Below, piece by piece: positions 1-18,206 of a DNA stretch of 24,160 bases; positions within the stretch are counted from its first letter, which is position 1; every line of letters starts with the position of its first letter. Position numbers and translations under genes: made by a program. The stretch is taken from positions 1 to 24,160 of IMG/VR virus record IMGVR_UViG_3300028025_003953; one strand, 5' to 3'. The DNA is from a virus. The notes below the pieces were generated by a model that saw nothing but the letters and a program-made list of their open reading frames with translations, made no database searches and was not told where the DNA came from.

Positions 1-165
1 TCGCCAAGCATTGAAACGTACTACTCGTTTAGTGCAGAGGCTGCGTCGTGGCTCGACAATATTTTGTTCGAACACTTTAATAAGCAGTCGCTGGACAAGG
101 TTGAAGAGGGAAAGCCTTCGACCTCGCCAAAGGAGCAGCCGAAGGTTACAGCCGATCCTCAGTGA
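1..165 (+). CDS. Tail assembly chaperone, G-like (partial, 5' end outside window)
   Basis: The first frame is open from base 1 to a TGA at 163-165 and gives the last 54 residues of a protein that begins upstream. The visible part has an acidic, amphipathic stretch followed by a Pro/Ser/Lys-rich tail. I assign it as the first of the two tail assembly chaperones (lambda G equivalent) because it sits directly before the tape measure gene, is followed by an overlapping -1 frame, and carries a canonical slippery site at 108-114. In the family these proteins coat the tape measure protein during tail assembly and are absent from the virion. No sequence motif by itself proves the family; position and frameshift architecture carry the call. 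Confidence 0.72.
   Translation, partial: SPSIETYYSFSAEAASWLDNILFEHFNKQSLDKVEEGKPSTSPKEQPKVTADPQ
108..114 (+). other. Programmed -1 frameshift slippery site GGGAAAG
   Basis: The heptamer G GGA AAG lies in the zero frame of the upstream chaperone, with codons GAG-GGA-AAG, and fits X XXY YYZ. It is the same heptamer used by lambda G/GT. The -1 frame is open from 105 onward, so a slip here continues without a stop to 416. A 6-base inverted repeat (115-120 with 140-145) follows immediately. The spacing is shorter than usual for a stimulatory stem, so its role is doubtful. Confidence 0.85.
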
Positions 166-416
166 TCGAAGCGTATCCAAGGCTTGGCGAGGCATACGCG
201 CTCTACGACCAGTGCCGATCGCGGCAAATGGTTATCCACGAAGTACCAAAGCAGGGAGGCAAGCAGACTGAGATCCGTATGGTAAACATACCTACTGGAT
301 ACTCCTGCTTGCCATACCCTGGCGGACTGTTGGATCAGCCTTCATATATCGTCGATGCGTTCTTGCAGTTTTCACTGGGAGAGCGAACCGTAGCGATGAA
401 GCAACTGACTAAATAG
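114..416 (+). CDS. Tail assembly chaperone, T-like extension made by -1 frameshift
   Basis: The -1 frame continues for 100 codons after the slippery site to a TAG at 414-416. The segment between the slip and base 162 reads as plausible protein (begins A-F-D-L-A-K-G), which favours a fused product over an independent gene. An in-frame GTG at 162 overlaps the upstream TGA by 4 bases (GTGA), so reinitiation could also give an 84-residue stand-alone protein. There is no good Shine-Dalgarno before that GTG. By analogy with lambda gpGT, the extension would bind tail tube subunits while the G part binds the tape measure protein. The next gene is the tape measure, as expected. Confidence 0.72.
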   Translation, partial: AFDLAKGAAEGYSRSSVIEAYPRLGEAYALYDQCRSRQMVIHEVPKQGGKQTEIRMVNIPTGYSCLPYPGGLLDQPSYIVDAFLQFSLGERTVAMKQLTK

Positions 417-425
417 CCCGCAGAC

Positions 426-464
426 ACGCCCGTCCCTGTCTGTTCAGGGGCGGGCGTATTTTTT
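426..464 (+). terminator. Rho-independent terminator between chaperones and tape measure gene
   Basis: A 13-pair stem (426-438 with 445-457, one G-T wobble), a 6-base loop and six T residues at 459-464 form a textbook intrinsic terminator. It ends 14 bases before the tape measure ATG, so it lies inside the late transcription unit. It would be expected to reduce read-through into the tape measure gene rather than end the operon. Confidence 0.85.
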
Positions 465-478
465 ATTGAGGTATATTT

Positions 479-3400
479 ATGGCAGAACAAGGTGGACATC
501 TTAAAATTACTGCGTCACTTGACAGCAGAGGTGTCAAGGCTGGAACGCAGCAACTAAATAAAGACCTCAATAGCGTTGGCTCAGGCACCGCTGGTGCTGG
601 GGCTGCAGCCGTTGCTGGTAGTACTAATGCTCAGAACAAGCATAATGCCGCCGTTAACGCTGGTAATAAGGCTCTTAAGACTAACAACGAAATGAGCCAG
701 CGGCAGATCGATACGGCTCGCAGGCAGGCGTATGCCCTATCGGTCGCTGGATATCAGGCTCAGGCTCTTGGTCAGCAGGCTCTTGCCGCCGTAAGCGGCT
801 GGATTAACGCCTTTGCCAAGATCGACTATCAAGCAAGACGAGCAGTAGCCTCATTTGACATGGCTGCTGGAAGCGCAGAAGAAACGGCGAAATCCGTCGA
901 TATGGTTATCGCTGCGTCAAACGATCTTGCCCGATCGTTCGGTATGTTCGACGCGACTACCATCTCGCAGGGTCTTTACTTCTACGCATCTACTACTGGT
1001 ACGGTAGTCAAGAATCAAGACGACCTTAACGAAGTTATGCGCCAGTTCACGCCTATTCTTCAGGCTGCTGGTATTACCTCCACGAACCTTGAAACCGCTA
1101 TCAAGGGCGTAAACGGTATTGTTCAGGAATTCGGCATGAGTATGTCCGATATTCCAACCATCATGGAAAAACTCTATTCAGTAACGCAGAAGTCTGCTGC
1201 TGAAATGACGAACTACTTCGAAGCGTTTAAGATGGTCGGTCCTATCGCTAAGCAGATGGGCGCATCTTTCGACGATGCTTTGATCATTCTCTCCGAGTTC
1301 TCGGACGAGCAGATCAAGGGCGGTATGGCTGGTCGCGCATTGCGACAGACACTCACCAAGATGGTCGATCCGAGCAATGAGGCGAGGATTGCGCTTGATG
1401 GGCTGTTCGCTTCGACTGTTGGAGTCGGCACATCATTTAACTCCCTGATGAAAAAGGACGGGGACTTTGTTGGCTACAGGCAATACATTGACCAACTAAC
1501 TCAGTCTCTCGCCAAGGTAACGCCAGCACGACGCAAGGAAATCCTTGCGATCATGACGACTCAGAACGAAATGGCTCCTTTGGTCACGACCATCGAGCAG
1601 GGTATTGATTCTTATGAGCGATATGGCAAGAGCCTTTTTGAAACAAGCAAGTATGTAGATGTTCTAAAGAACGCTCATGAGGACTTCCAAAAAGACCTAG
1701 AGACTATTGCTCGATCGGCTGAAGCCTCACGCGGAAGAATCACCGCATCGTTCGAGGCGATTAAGATTTCGCTTGGTAACGCTATGGCTCCAGCACTTGC
1801 AACTTCTGCAGATGCAATGGAAGCATTCTCCAAGGGTCTTGAAAAAGTTATTACTAGCAATAAGTTGGTCGCTGGCGCTATCGGCGGATTCACAGCCCTA
1901 AGCGGAGTAATCCTTACGCTTGTTGGATCTTTGCTTGTCCTTTCTGGTACATTCGCACTTTTGCGAGTGGGCTACAAGGAAGTTCGACTCATGTCGAGCG
2001 AGATGTCAAAGAATGCAGGCTGGATGGCTATGCGTAAGCAGGCTGGCTTGTATCTTCGCCAACTAAAAGAAATTCTTACTACACAGAATCAATGGCTTTC
2101 TGCTAGGCAGTCATTCGTTGACCCGCTTATGAGCGGCTTCTCAAAACTTAAAAGTGCCTGGGTTTCGCTTACAAAGTTTATGAAAGTCACACTTGCAAAA
2201 GTGTGGGATTTCAGTAAGCCAGTACGAACTCCAGTACGAAACGCAGTCCTTGGCTCCATCCGTAGTGCAAGCGACGCAGTAGGAAGCGGTATCACTAGAG
2301 CATCTGGATATGCTGAGAGGATTACTGCCCCAATTCGGGGTAGGATCTCTCAAGCAACGGCTCTACCTGGTCGCGCAATGGATTACCTTCAGCGCAGAGT
2401 AACCGCTGCTCGAAGAGTGCAGCCTTCGATTATTCAGCGCGGCATCGACTTCGTTGAGCAGCGCCCAAGCGTCCAGAAATTCTACGGTGCAATTAGCGAA
2501 CAGGGTACAATGACCCCATCGCAAGCAATCCCTAAGGCATTGATGCGTAAAGCAACTGCCGCATGGGAGTCTTTCGTCCTTAAGGGCGGAAATGCAATGA
2601 TTCGCGCTCTCCAATCTGGAGAGAAGTTGCTTGTTGACACGCTTCCTGGATTCAAAAATAAGATTATTAGGGGATGGGAATCTTTCATCGTCAAGGGTGG
2701 AGATGCCATGATCCGCGCCCTCGATGGGCTATTCAACGGTGTAAATCGTGTAGTAGTTGGCATTGAGAGCGGATATAACCGCGCCATCGTATCGGGCTAT
2801 AAGGCTATGATGCGGATTGGCGATGCTTACCTATCGATGGGCGATAGGATTGCAAAGACTATTATCGACTCAGTTGAGAAGACAAAATCTATTGCAAACT
2901 CTCTAAAGATTAGCATTAAGAATATCTTTGCAAGAACCAAAAAGTTCTTCTCAAAGGATATCGCTGCTGCTGCTGCTCGATACCGAGACGCATTCAGGGC
3001 ATTCATTAAAGACACACCAAACATGCTGCGGGCTGCGCTAGATCGCACAAAGCAGTTCTTTAGTAGTGATCTTGGACAGTTCCTTTCTAAGGCTAAGTCA
3101 ACGACAGTTCGCTTTGCCAATAATACCTCAACGGCTCTTGTCAATTCTGTAAACAGCCTTAGGGCAACGATCACAAAGAATGTTGTCGGTCCGTTTACTC
3201 GTCTTGGGGAGTCGTTGCGTTCGCTTAATATCGCCAAGGGCGTAAGTGGCTTCTTCACAAAGATGAAGACTTCGCTAATCGACTTTGGTAAAATGGCAAT
3301 GCAGCGAGTCAAGGCGCTAAACCTTTCGGCTGCTCCTATTACTAGGGGCGGTGGTCGCGCTGTTGCAGCGCTGGAGACTGTGAGTTCTGCCGCTGGTACG

Positions 3401-5974
3401 CCAATGGGTAAGAACGCAGCGGTTGCCGCAATTGCAGCAATGAAGCCAGCACTTGCCATTGCCCTACAAACCGTTAAGAAGTGGGCAGGAACAGCGCTTT
3501 CATTGTTCAAGTCATTTGGATCAAAACTTCTTAAACTTACAAAAGCAATCTTTAGTCCGTTCGCCGTTATTATTGAGTTCACTATTGGCTTCATCACTGG
3601 ACTCTTTAAGGGTTTCAGCACAGATGTCAACAAGAAACTTGAAGATGCTGGTTATACGGCAAAGAAAACTGGCGAAAATTTCAATATTCTAAAGTCGATC
3701 TTTGAAGTTCTTATCCTTCCAATCAAGGCAATCATCTTCGTTTTTGATTTGATTCGTTTGACTGGCGAGGCTCTAGGAATTCTCACCGCAAAACTCGTCC
3801 AAGGCTTTATGTCTCTTGGGGATTCAATCCCATTTATCAAGGGCATTGGCGAAGCATTCGGCTTCGTAGGCGATGTTGCTGGCAATGTTGGCGACTTCTT
3901 TGGTGACATTATTACTAAATACCAAGTCATGATTGATGACCTTGGCAATGGTAATACAGAGATGCGAGCAAAACTTCGTGATAACGAAGACGAGATTGCT
4001 CGGCTCACTGCTCAGCGCAAAGGTGCTAGCGGTGAAGAACTTAAAACTATTAACGCGGCTATCTTGGCTCTTGAAGAGAAAAACAGGGTTCTCCGAGAGC
4101 AACTACAACTTAACTATGATCTCGACCCTAAAAATTACGCAGGCGATGTTGTTGCATGGCTTGATGCTGCTGGAAACGAAATCGGCAAGCGTCGTATCAA
4201 TATGGGCGAGAACATCTTTAACGAGTGGAAAAGAAAATGGGAAAAGTGGAAAGAGTTAAGTGCTAATGTAGTTATTCCAGAAGAGTTCAAGGGAAGTTAT
4301 TCTGACTACCTTAACTGGAGTAGTGACATGTCTGACCAGGCAGCAACTGCTGCTGAGGCTGCAGAAAATGCACTAGGGAATGCTGTAGATGTTGCCCAGC
4401 AGGGCGCAGCGCTTGTCAAGGCTCTTAAAGAAATTGGAAATCAAAACATTGAAGCCCTTGTTGAGAAGACAATGGGCAAAGTTGCTAAGGCTGTAGCCCG
4501 CGCTACCGAGATTGTTGCAGAGGCTTCATCTGGTATTAGCAGCACTGACCTTGACGCGGCATCGAAATTCGGTGGCGCTGCGAATACAGTGCTAGGGGCA
4601 ATTAGTGCCGCAGTAACCGCTTTCAATGGTTTGAAGAACGTTTCGCTGCCAACCAGCAGCAAAATTACCAATGTAATTGTTAAAATGCAACAGATTGTTT
4701 CTGCGTTCATCGCTAAACTTTCTGGTTTTAATGATACAAAACTAGGTAACGCATCTGTTATTGCAGAGTCTGTTGCGAATATTGTTGATGCCGTCGGCTC
4801 AGCAGTAAGCGGATTTAAGGACCTGCAAGAGGTTGTAACATTCAATCCTGCGCCGTACATCACGACGTTGATTGCCAACATCAATATGGTTGTCAAGGCA
4901 TTTATTGCTGGAACAACAAAGATTGGCAAGGCAGCAGTAGTCGCGGCTGCGGCAAAGATGGCTGAGGCTGCTGACTCGATTGTTTCGGCAATCGGTAGTA
5001 CAGCCAACGCATTCAAGGACCTTAGCGGTGAGATCTCAATTCCTACTTCGGTAGTAGTTGGTCGAGTCATCGACTCAATGGGAAGCATCGTAAAGCAGTT
5101 CATTACTGCATCTAAGAACTTTGCAACATTGGCAAGCAGCGAGGCTGCTGCCAAGTTCGCTGAGCCGTTTGATTCAATCCTTTCGGCGATTGGCGCAACG
5201 GCTCAAACATTCCAAGATATGCTGTCATTCAGCGCTCCAATGGAGAGCACTGTTGACCAGATCATTTCCACGATGGAGATGGTGCTCAACAAGATGGTTG
5301 CCCTTAGCAATAAGATGGCAATCAGCGATGCGAAACTGCTTGCGATCACCTCATTTAGCAATACTATTGAGGCTGTAGCATCTGCAGTTACCGCGACGTA
5401 TGAAGCATTCTTTAAGGACCTTGCCGCACTCGATGAGTTTAGGCAGGTTATCGATATCGATCAGGTCTTTGGCTGGATGGAAGATTCTCTTTCGAGGATG
5501 TTCAATTTGACAAAGGCATACACTGGTACTAATATTGAGCAGATCGCAAGTGCTGCTGACGCTGCGTCGAAGGTTGCAGAGGCGATCTCTTCGTTCTTCG
5601 GCATTGCAAGCGAAGCATCAGATGACCCAACAAGGCTGTCTGACGCGATCAAGTACTCAATCGAATCAATCATTGAAGGCATTAATCAGTTCAATGTCGG
5701 TGTCCAAAGCACTGGTGCGAACTTTGTCGATCAATTGATTCTTGGCATGCAGTCTAGGGAAGATGCCCTAGCCGCCCAGACTGGTCGGCTAACGGCAATT
5801 CTCAGTGGAGTTGGGAACTCTACATCGACTGGCGAGTCGCAAAAGTTGGAGATCACGCATGTGATCAGCGATCCAACGGGTGCGCTCAAGAACGCTTCAG
5901 CCAGCGAGGTTGCAGCGATTCTCAGCGGCGATCAGTTCATCACGAACCTTCGCCAAAGCATCAAGACCCAGTAA
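479..5974 (+). CDS. Tail tape measure protein
   Basis: This 1831-residue protein sets tail length and is threaded inside the tail tube. Residues about 110-310 match the TP901-type tape measure core in character (helical, with conserved-looking Q-G-L-Y-F-Y and G-G-M-A-G-R-A-L stretches). Long hydrophobic segments lie at about 463-500, 1020-1045 and 1070-1095, as usual in tape measures that insert into the host membrane. A coiled-coil stretch lies at about 1153-1216. A W-E-S-F-x-x-K-G-G motif is duplicated at 696 and 733, and five helical repeats of about 65 residues occupy about 1388-1710. No lysozyme or peptidase motif was seen. With the usual rule of about 0.15 nm per residue, the tail would be about 270 nm. 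ATG 479 is preceded by GAGG at 468-471. Confidence 0.95.
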   Translation: MAEQGGHLKITASLDSRGVKAGTQQLNKDLNSVGSGTAGAGAAAVAGSTNAQNKHNAAVNAGNKALKTNNEMSQRQIDTARRQAYALSVAGYQAQALGQQALAAVSGWINAFAKIDYQARRAVASFDMAAGSAEETAKSVDMVIAASNDLARSFGMFDATTISQGLYFYASTTGTVVKNQDDLNEVMRQFTPILQAAGITSTNLETAIKGVNGIVQEFGMSMSDIPTIMEKLYSVTQKSAAEMTNYFEAFKMVGPIAKQMGASFDDALIILSEFSDEQIKGGMAGRALRQTLTKMVDPSNEARIALDGLFASTVGVGTSFNSLMKKDGDFVGYRQYIDQLTQSLAKVTPARRKEILAIMTTQNEMAPLVTTIEQGIDSYERYGKSLFETSKYVDVLKNAHEDFQKDLETIARSAEASRGRITASFEAIKISLGNAMAPALATSADAMEAFSKGLEKVITSNKLVAGAIGGFTALSGVILTLVGSLLVLSGTFALLRVGYKEVRLMSSEMSKNAGWMAMRKQAGLYLRQLKEILTTQNQWLSARQSFVDPLMSGFSKLKSAWVSLTKFMKVTLAKVWDFSKPVRTPVRNAVLGSIRSASDAVGSGITRASGYAERITAPIRGRISQATALPGRAMDYLQRRVTAARRVQPSIIQRGIDFVEQRPSVQKFYGAISEQGTMTPSQAIPKALMRKATAAWESFVLKGGNAMIRALQSGEKLLVDTLPGFKNKIIRGWESFIVKGGDAMIRALDGLFNGVNRVVVGIESGYNRAIVSGYKAMMRIGDAYLSMGDRIAKTIIDSVEKTKSIANSLKISIKNIFARTKKFFSKDIAAAAARYRDAFRAFIKDTPNMLRAALDRTKQFFSSDLGQFLSKAKSTTVRFANNTSTALVNSVNSLRATITKNVVGPFTRLGESLRSLNIAKGVSGFFTKMKTSLIDFGKMAMQRVKALNLSAAPITRGGGRAVAALETVSSAAGTPMGKNAAVAAIAAMKPALAIALQTVKKWAGTALSLFKSFGSKLLKLTKAIFSPFAVIIEFTIGFITGLFKGFSTDVNKKLEDAGYTAKKTGENFNILKSIFEVLILPIKAIIFVFDLIRLTGEALGILTAKLVQGFMSLGDSIPFIKGIGEAFGFVGDVAGNVGDFFGDIITKYQVMIDDLGNGNTEMRAKLRDNEDEIARLTAQRKGASGEELKTINAAILALEEKNRVLREQLQLNYDLDPKNYAGDVVAWLDAAGNEIGKRRINMGENIFNEWKRKWEKWKELSANVVIPEEFKGSYSDYLNWSSDMSDQAATAAEAAENALGNAVDVAQQGAALVKALKEIGNQNIEALVEKTMGKVAKAVARATEIVAEASSGISSTDLDAASKFGGAANTVLGAISAAVTAFNGLKNVSLPTSSKITNVIVKMQQIVSAFIAKLSGFNDTKLGNASVIAESVANIVDAVGSAVSGFKDLQEVVTFNPAPYITTLIANINMVVKAFIAGTTKIGKAAVVAAAAKMAEAADSIVSAIGSTANAFKDLSGEISIPTSVVVGRVIDSMGSIVKQFITASKNFATLASSEAAAKFAEPFDSILSAIGATAQTFQDMLSFSAPMESTVDQIISTMEMVLNKMVALSNKMAISDAKLLAITSFSNTIEAVASAVTATYEAFFKDLAALDEFRQVIDIDQVFGWMEDSLSRMFNLTKAYTGTNIEQIASAADAASKVAEAISSFFGIASEASDDPTRLSDAIKYSIESIIEGINQFNVGVQSTGANFVDQLILGMQSREDALAAQTGRLTAILSGVGNSTSTGESQKLEITHVISDPTGALKNASASEVAAILSGDQFITNLRQSIKTQ
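4640..5620 (+). repeat. Five tandem ~65-residue repeats in the tape measure protein
   Basis: Units begin near nucleotides 4640, 4841, 5036, 5231 and 5434, a period of 195-203 bases. Each unit has a P-containing turn, a helix with a pattern like V-x-x-I-x-x-M-x-x-I-V-x-x-F, a second turn, and a second helix resembling A-x-S-I-V-S-A-I-G-x-x-A-x-A-F-K-D-L. The fifth unit is more diverged. The repeats are clear in protein but weak in DNA, so they are old. Confidence 0.7.
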
Positions 5975-14350: not shown

Positions 14351-15514
14351 ATGAACCTACTCAGAGTTACTATAGTAACCGCGATGATCTTTACTGCCGC
14401 ATTCGTTGCGGCACTTTACTCAGCAAATCCAACGCTCGGCTCGGAGGGTGAGCCGCCATATTTTGTGAATCAAACACAAGATTACTGGATTGAACTCAGC
14501 GAACCTGGGACTTTGGAAATCTGGACAGATCTCTGCCCAGATTCCACAAGCGCTTGGTGCGACAATCTTGTGGACTCCATGCTCTGGCTTTACGACAATC
14601 AGGGAAACTTGATTGCCGCAAATGACGATGCTTGGACCGAACATACTGGGAACTACTCACTGGCTTCCTACATCATTATGAGGGACTTGCCAGCATCTGA
14701 GTATAGGCTACGGGCTGGTCGTTGCTGCGGCAACCCAGAGGCGCAGTTCTACAACAATGGTTCGTATTGGCTTTGGACAAATGTGGGTGCCACGATTGAT
14801 CCAAATCCACCTGATCCAGAGTGGACACCGACTCCGCCGCCACCGCCAACCCCTGAGCCGACACCGACTCCAGAGCCGACCATTGAGCCGACTCCAGAGC
14901 CTACCCCTACCGAGACACCAGAACCGCCTGCACCAAGCCCTAGCGTGGCTCCTAGCCCTACGCCAGAGCCTTCTGTAGAGCCATCCCCGACACCCCAACC
15001 GACTCCAGAGCCGACACCTGAGCCGACCCCTGAGCCAACGCCAGAGCCTACGCCAGAGCCAACGCCTGAGCCGACGCTGCCGCCAACGCCGCAGCCAAGC
15101 ATGGAGCCGTCAATTGAACCAACACCGAACCCGACTTCCACACCCGAGCCGTCGCCCGAAGCGACCGATTCGCCCGAGCCTGTGGTATCTCCTGATCCCA
15201 CTAGCGTTCCTTCTCCTGAGCCAGAGCAGCCCACTCTGCCGTCTCCCGTAGAGATTGCAAGTGCTGCTGTTGAGGCTGTCGGTGAAGCAGTCGCTGCTGT
15301 AGGCGAGGCTGTCAGTGAGGCAGTCGAAGTAGTTTCAAATCTTGGTAAAGACCTATCACCAGTTGAAAGGGAAAAGGCTCGCGAAGCCGTGCTACCAGCA
15401 ATCATTATTACTCAGGTAGCGCAGGCTGCTGTTGCTGCTGCTTCAATGGCAGCGCGACCGACACCTCCGCCTTCTGGGTCTAGCACGACCTCAAGGAGTA
15501 AGAGCAATGTTTAA
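14351..15514 (+). CDS. Secreted proline-rich protein with N-terminal beta domain
   Basis: 387 residues. Residues 1-25 form a signal peptide or membrane anchor (N-L-L-R, then a hydrophobic stretch). Residues about 35-145 look like a pre-peptidase/DVUA0089-type beta sandwich, with a D-S-M-L-W-L-Y-D-N-Q-G core followed by A-A-N-D-D, and four cysteines (62, 70, 125, 126) fitting disulfides outside the cell. Residues about 150-302 are a Pro-Thr-Glu-Ser linker containing six exact-period PTPE units. Residues about 305-340 form an Ala/Val/Glu amphipathic helix, and 350-375 a hydrophobic Ala-rich helix that could be membrane-bound. A phage protein that is exported and spans a cell wall could act in lysis, attachment or superinfection exclusion, but the role is unknown. 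A GAGGAGG site precedes ATG. Confidence 0.7.
   Translation: MNLLRVTIVTAMIFTAAFVAALYSANPTLGSEGEPPYFVNQTQDYWIELSEPGTLEIWTDLCPDSTSAWCDNLVDSMLWLYDNQGNLIAANDDAWTEHTGNYSLASYIIMRDLPASEYRLRAGRCCGNPEAQFYNNGSYWLWTNVGATIDPNPPDPEWTPTPPPPPTPEPTPTPEPTIEPTPEPTPTETPEPPAPSPSVAPSPTPEPSVEPSPTPQPTPEPTPEPTPEPTPEPTPEPTPEPTLPPTPQPSMEPSIEPTPNPTSTPEPSPEATDSPEPVVSPDPTSVPSPEPEQPTLPSPVEIASAAVEAVGEAVAAVGEAVSEAVEVVSNLGKDLSPVEREKAREAVLPAIIITQVAQAAVAAASMAARPTPPPSGSSTTSRSKSNV
14999..15070 (+). repeat. Six tandem 12-base repeats encoding PTPE
   Basis: Six consecutive 12-base units with consensus CCNACNCCNGAG are in frame with the secreted protein (residues 217-240). They differ mainly at third codon positions, so the array is held by protein selection and is not a very recent expansion. 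Further imperfect units flank it on both sides. Confidence 0.85.
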
Positions 15515-17525: not shown

Positions 17526-18206
17526 TCACTCCACCTTTCGGTACACGAAGAATCGACCCTTCCAGTCAGTGCCGTCGAACATTCGGTTTAGGACAGTCTC
17601 GTTGTTTAGGATCGGCACAAGCATCGGTTGACGCTCGCCAATCCGCTTCTCCCACCAAGAGCGTTCCTTCATGGTCACATGGGTAACGTCTACATCGGTC
17701 TCTGCAGATGCGCCATCGGACAGCGCAATGCGCAGCCAGAGTTCGCCTCCTACCTTGAGAACACGGTACATATCGTCAATGATCTGGTCAACCTTTGACT
17801 CATCAATGTGCTCAAAGAACTCCCATGACGTGACGATATCAAAGACGCTCGATGCGTATGGCAGACCGTACTCAACATTGGCAAGGGTCAAAGCGCCCTT
17901 TGCCATTGGAGCGCAGTTCTCTACGGCATACTTGCTGATGTCCACGCCGAGAGCCTCATGACCACGGACGTTGCAGTGATGCACGAACCAACCCTTTGCC
18001 GCGCCAACGTCGAGCATAGTCAAGCCACGATTGCCGTGTGGCGACTCGATCAGGCTAATGATCTCGTTCCAGCGCGGGTCGTCGGCGTAGTTGCGGTAGT
18101 TCGATCCCTCAGCGCGCTCGAAGTAGCCTTCGTTGTAGCGAGCGTCAAGCACCTCATCCAGCGAGGCGTTGTGGTGCTGTATGTCTAAGTCCTTCATGTA
18201 TCCCAT
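17526..18206 (-). CDS. Class I SAM-dependent methyltransferase
   Basis: 226 residues. Motif I, L-D-V-G-A-A-K-G-W-F, lies at 65-74, an acidic end of strand 2 is D89 in G-V-D-I-S, and F-D-I-V-T-S-W-E-F-F-E-H-I at about 122-134 is the post-motif segment of Methyltransf_11-type enzymes. The substrate is not evident: no DNA-methylase D/NPPY motif is present, so a small molecule, sugar or protein substrate is more likely. It starts at ATG 18206, immediately after the stop of the zinc-ribbon gene, with GAGAGG upstream. Confidence 0.85.
   Translation of the reverse strand: MGYMKDLDIQHHNASLDEVLDARYNEGYFERAEGSNYRNYADDPRWNEIISLIESPHGNRGLTMLDVGAAKGWFVHHCNVRGHEALGVDISKYAVENCAPMAKGALTLANVEYGLPYASSVFDIVTSWEFFEHIDESKVDQIIDDMYRVLKVGGELWLRIALSDGASAETDVDVTHVTMKERSWWEKRIGERQPMLVPILNNETVLNRMFDGTDWKGRFFVYRKVE

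Follow-up and report, generated by a model that had tools for sequence, protein, structure and literature searches.

In bacteriophage lambda, the G/GT pair of tail assembly chaperones arises through a -1 shift at the heptamer GGGAAAG, which is read in the phase G GGA AAG and lies some 8 codons short of the stop of G, close to the gene's 3' end; the tail gene order is V-G-T-H. The sequence G_GGA_AAG is described as highly shift-prone in E. coli, with a molar ratio of 30:1 between the two lambda products; the binding partner of G is the tape measure protein and that of T the major tail protein (PMC5009743). The slip site GGGAAAG is likewise reported for gpG-gpT of TP901-1, where its disruption yields capsids without tails (PMC4493119), and it is found in phase in gpG-gpT of Tuc2009; in both phages the pair sits before the tape measure gene. 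In Rhodococcus phage ReqiDocB7, too, a tail assembly chaperone in two pieces is annotated ahead of the tape measure gene (pre-TMP frameshift protein). As a class, such G/GT pairs are recognised by position and frameshift rather than by sequence identity; a pair of this class is also expected to make little GT relative to G during infection and to leave neither product in the virion.

A comparable arrangement lies at the left end of the IMG/VR virus record IMGVR_UViG_3300028025_003953. The whole stretch analysed here, positions 1 to 24,160 of that record (24,160 bases), is referred to as the window, and the record itself is probably a fragment. Very probably, the G/T pair of the window uses a programmed lambda-type -1 ribosomal frameshift within a tail assembly chaperone gene of the siphovirus type. 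We infer both the occurrence and the rate of frameshifting.

Coding layout and gene order

The features of the locus are as follows.

1 to 165, plus strand: 3' part of gene G, a putative tail assembly chaperone read in the zero frame; the 5' end is beyond the window start, and the stop is TGA at 163-165
102 to 104, plus strand: TGA stop in the -1 frame (frame 3), directly 5' of the slip site
108 to 114, plus strand: slippery heptamer GGGAAAG in the phase G GGA AAG, based on sequence and homologues
108 to 416, plus strand: T extension in the -1 frame, the C-terminal part of the predicted GT product; counted from the slip site it has 102 residues and ends at TAG 414-416
162 to 164, plus strand: GTG overlapping the G stop TGA at 163-165 (GTGA); probably unused as a start
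426 to 457, plus strand: terminator-like hairpin with a T run, located 3' of T and 5' of the tape measure gene; kept in relatives with changed stems
479 to 5974, plus strand: tape measure protein by sequence match, the presumed client of G

Only the last 54 codons of G (frame 1) fall within the window, whose start cuts the gene; their translation is ...DKVEEGKPSTSPKEQPKVTADPQ followed by the stop, and in complete homologues G occupies open frames of 132-148 codons. At the heptamer the zero-frame codons are GAG GGA AAG, which correspond to X XXY YYZ. The original prediction, that GGGAAAG stands in zero-frame phase and that an open -1 frame spans 105 to 416, is correct on both counts, with the heptamer at 108-114 and the open frame, which reads RGKAFDLAKGAAEGYSRSSVIEAYPRL... 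from 105, delimited by TGA at 102-104 and TAG at 414-416. Since the former stop closes the -1 frame, T is unreadable from farther upstream. The second ORF is thus placed -1 to the first, overlaps its 3' end and is without a start of its own, and the X XXY YYZ heptamer lies in phase in the overlap and is conserved in homologues.

Pairs of the lambda type stand directly before the tape measure gene and after the gene for the major tail protein, and the locus agrees with this order. T is followed directly by the tape measure protein gene in the window and in 5/5 relatives scanned; the gene for the tail protein phrog_290, named 'minor tail protein' in PHROGs, precedes G in 4/4 relatives scanned, the upstream gene of the window itself lying beyond its edge. 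The presumed chaperone role of G and T, originally proposed from position, is supported by this gene order and by the homologues. The accompanying remark that the phage has little lambda-like gene content is true of sequence, as no relative of G or T was found in known phages; the gene order, by contrast, resembles that of lambda.

At the sequence level, the extension of the window begins GKAFD where that of lambda begins GKVFD, and beyond this start no relation to lambda G or T is detectable. Unlike lambda T, the T part of the window, 102 residues long from the slip site, contains the motif LPYxGGLLDQP, and whereas lambda T and H overlap, the hairpin at 426-457 separates T from the tape measure gene here. 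No sequence relation to the G/T proteins of TP901-1 or Tuc2009 was seen either, and Tuc2009 is without GGLLDQP. The T part of ReqiDocB7 holds LPWAGGLMDQ and gives a weak tblastn match (E 0.4); however, a scan of its overlap found no XXXYYYZ heptamer, and the remainder of its G and T is dissimilar.

The hairpin is equally strong in the relatives, with z values of -3.2 to -7.2 in 6/6 sequences folded, and its stems differ among them, 5/15 consensus pairs showing changes on both sides. It may lower expression of the tape measure protein. A putative terminator is also annotated just before the tape measure gene of HK97. No clear stimulatory RNA structure was found 3' of the slip site: folding was only moderately better than in shuffled sequences (z -1.2 to -2.4), and the alignment gave no covariation gain. 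Elsewhere in the window, the ORF at 14351-15514 encodes a long proline/threonine/glutamate repeat (PEPTPEPT...) with no PHROGs match, and a methyltransferase (phrog_27380, E 1e-37) is encoded on the minus strand at 17526-18206, amid small unknown genes.

Homologous loci and the change of reading frame

Peptide scans of IMG/VR based on T returned 15 loci and then 19, using patterns that partly overlap the heptamer codons. Two further scans used patterns free of such overlap: G sequence upstream of the heptamer recovered the identical 19 loci plus one cut-off contig, and T residues beyond the heptamer recovered the 19 again together with four further full homologues (L072, L073, L077 and L078) and three loci where a motif is all that is shared. 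The resulting set comprises 24 loci with a readable junction, the window included. Duplicate contigs (L017-L028, L033-L051, L053-L071 and L074-L076) were excluded before counting, as was L052, whose contig ends before the junction; L079-L081, with only the motif in common, are not among the 24. Two scans of bacterial genomes found no relative.

T in the -1 frame aligns from one common place in 24/24 loci. The slip site, whose conservation in homologues had been put forward as a check on the prediction, is exactly GGGAAAG in 22 of the 24, with GGGAAAA in L077 and GGGAAAT in L078. Relatives that keep the site, exactly or with the last base changed, reach down to 55-56% T identity. In L078, the variant at L078:3902-3908 would need either re-pairing of Asn-tRNA with AAA or slipping of Gly-tRNA alone, and by the usual rules we take it to be a weaker slip site.

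The sharpest localization comes from half of the set (12/24; L006-L013 and L029-L032), in which a stop in the -1 frame ends 6 nt upstream of the heptamer and one in the zero frame begins 10 nt downstream of the heptamer's first base (GKQ or GKR, then the stop), so that G terminates two codons past the slip site. These closely spaced stops confine the transition to a stretch little longer than the heptamer, and slippage at or next to it is therefore the only straightforward connection between G and T in these loci.

The pattern of substitutions changes frame at the same place. Over the junction region, 20 of the 24 loci represent 16 distinct sequences, of which 15 were compared pairwise (L014 was dropped and its near twin L015 kept). 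Upstream of the slip site the third position of the zero frame is the most variable (0.53 vs 0.25 and 0.18), and downstream it is the third position of the T frame (0.37 vs 0.16 and 0.10). A change-point fit on 14 sequences, leaving out duplicates as well as L014-L016, L072, L073, L077 and L078 because of gaps or distance, placed the best switch 1 nt before the heptamer, with an interval of -14 to +6 (within 2 log units). Its log-likelihood of -141.7, compared with -189.2 and -211.2 for models without a switch, makes the phase-switch model better than either single frame by at least 47 log units. The G/GT arrangement originally proposed is thereby supported by the 24 loci, the phase switch and the adjacent tape measure gene.

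Under the proposed mechanism, most ribosomes would read G to its stop at 163-165. In a minority, with Gly-tRNA on GGA in the P site and Lys-tRNA on AAG in the A site, a tandem slip of one base back (GGA AAG to GGG AAA) would allow translation to continue in the T frame to 416 and yield GT as a fusion protein. If the roles are as in lambda, G would coat the tape measure protein, the T part would bring the major tail protein to it, and the slip rate would set the G:GT ratio.

Alternative origins of the T frame

It is conceivable that T is a small gene in its own right, with initiation at GTG 162-164 through translational coupling to the G stop with which this codon overlaps (GTGA), and some Microbacterium phages are indeed described with the two ORFs expressed separately (PMC7302621). 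The GTG, however, which lies at +54, is kept in only 5/24 loci (the window and L002-L005) and missing from the other 19; five other loci have a TTG at +75, and 14/24 contain none of ATG, GTG and TTG within the initial 90 nt of T following the slip site. Sequence resembling a ribosome site at normal spacing precedes neither the GTG at +54 nor the TTG at +75 in any locus that has one of them, the window included, and an independent T gene provided with a ribosome site of its own, the observation named beforehand as refuting a frameshift, was encountered in 0/24. The 12 loci with tightly spaced stops are among those without a start codon in these 90 nt, which, combined with the early end of G, makes a separately started T untenable there.

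The protein encoded before the GTG points in the same direction. The original prediction regarded the -1 frame 5' of position 162 as plausible protein, and its residues proved to be conserved: G1, K2, K8, E12, G13 and Y14, located after the slip and before the GTG, are invariant in 12 sequences. An AlphaFold2 model of T (102 residues, from a 12-sequence alignment) predicts one domain with mean pLDDT 88.7 and pTM 0.79, in which residues 2-12, likewise encoded 5' of the GTG, form a helix. A separate T start at GTG 162 was rejected on the start-codon survey of the 24 loci; the codon is probably not a used start, and independent initiation of T is very improbable.

Besides ribosomal frameshifting, transcriptional slippage or a sequencing error can each join two frames in general, and an origin of the shift in either of these rather than in the ribosome is equally improbable here. 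The identical frame relation in 24 records excludes a chance error. Transcriptional slippage usually needs runs longer than three bases, and at the slip site neither the G run nor the A run exceeds three.

A single GGGAAAG is present in the window, counting both strands, compared with 2.5 occurrences expected by chance, and the match alone therefore carries no weight. Within a 20-codon overlap, codon shuffling gives an expectation of about 0.003 for GGGAAAG in the right phase, and about 0.04 is expected for any in-phase XXXYYYZ at the rate observed across 28 ORFs; the homologues constitute far stronger evidence than these figures. That the heptamer is fortuitous and the open -1 frame untranslated is the least probable reading of all; against it stand conservation, the switch in codon phase and the confidently modelled fold of the protein read in the -1 frame.

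The G/T family and the T motif

Both the mechanism and the gene order of the frameshifted pair are already known, and it is the sequence family that is unmatched in the libraries searched. Neither G nor T has a significant match in PHROGs, Pfam, NCBIfam, PDB sequences or 50,697 phage records, and no profile match to the described chaperone families of Pfam, PHROGs and NCBIfam was obtained. Searches with the T model in BFVD and PDB returned no matching fold; the G model was too poor (pLDDT 47) for its fold to be searched. Judged by sequence, the G/T protein family is new to these libraries. Erwinia phages (E 8) and Synechococcus phage MinM1 (E 3) were not accepted as relatives on score.

MinM1 was examined because of a common motif. 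Its region L083:2-403 encodes a 'hypothetical protein' with LPGAGGLNDQP and an in-phase AAAAAAC upstream, at the end of a linear record, and is possibly an unannotated frameshifted chaperone cut by the ends of the record.

The motif LPYxGGLLDQP of T recurs in L079, L080 and L081 (near 4001-4054), each time within an ORF shifted by -1 relative to its predecessor and directly 5' of an apparent tape measure protein start, as read from the DNA by eye. In-phase heptamers near the end of the preceding ORF are CCCAAAG or AAACCCA in L079, CCCAAAC in L080 and AAAAAAC in L081. A pattern search of lambda, X29, Tuc2009, PT9.1, MissC and Listeria 188 found the motif in 0/6, so it is not general, and GGLLDQP was not found in the open-access literature. 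A tentative interpretation, to which we give somewhat less than an even chance, is that the locus belongs to an undescribed G/T lineage whose T part folds into a small domain of helices, a beta hairpin and a long C-terminal helix, with the signature LPxxGGLLDQP; recurring in -1 extensions of otherwise unrelated phages, this signature would mark a widespread class of T domains and perhaps the surface contacting the major tail protein.

The G/T pair of the window represents a chaperone family that is isolated in sequence and has retained the lambda slip site. The 12 loci in which the frames overlap little beyond the heptamer provide a sharp comparative case, and the T motif, present in the frameshift protein of ReqiDocB7 and in three distant loci, could be useful for annotating T extensions that escape profile libraries.
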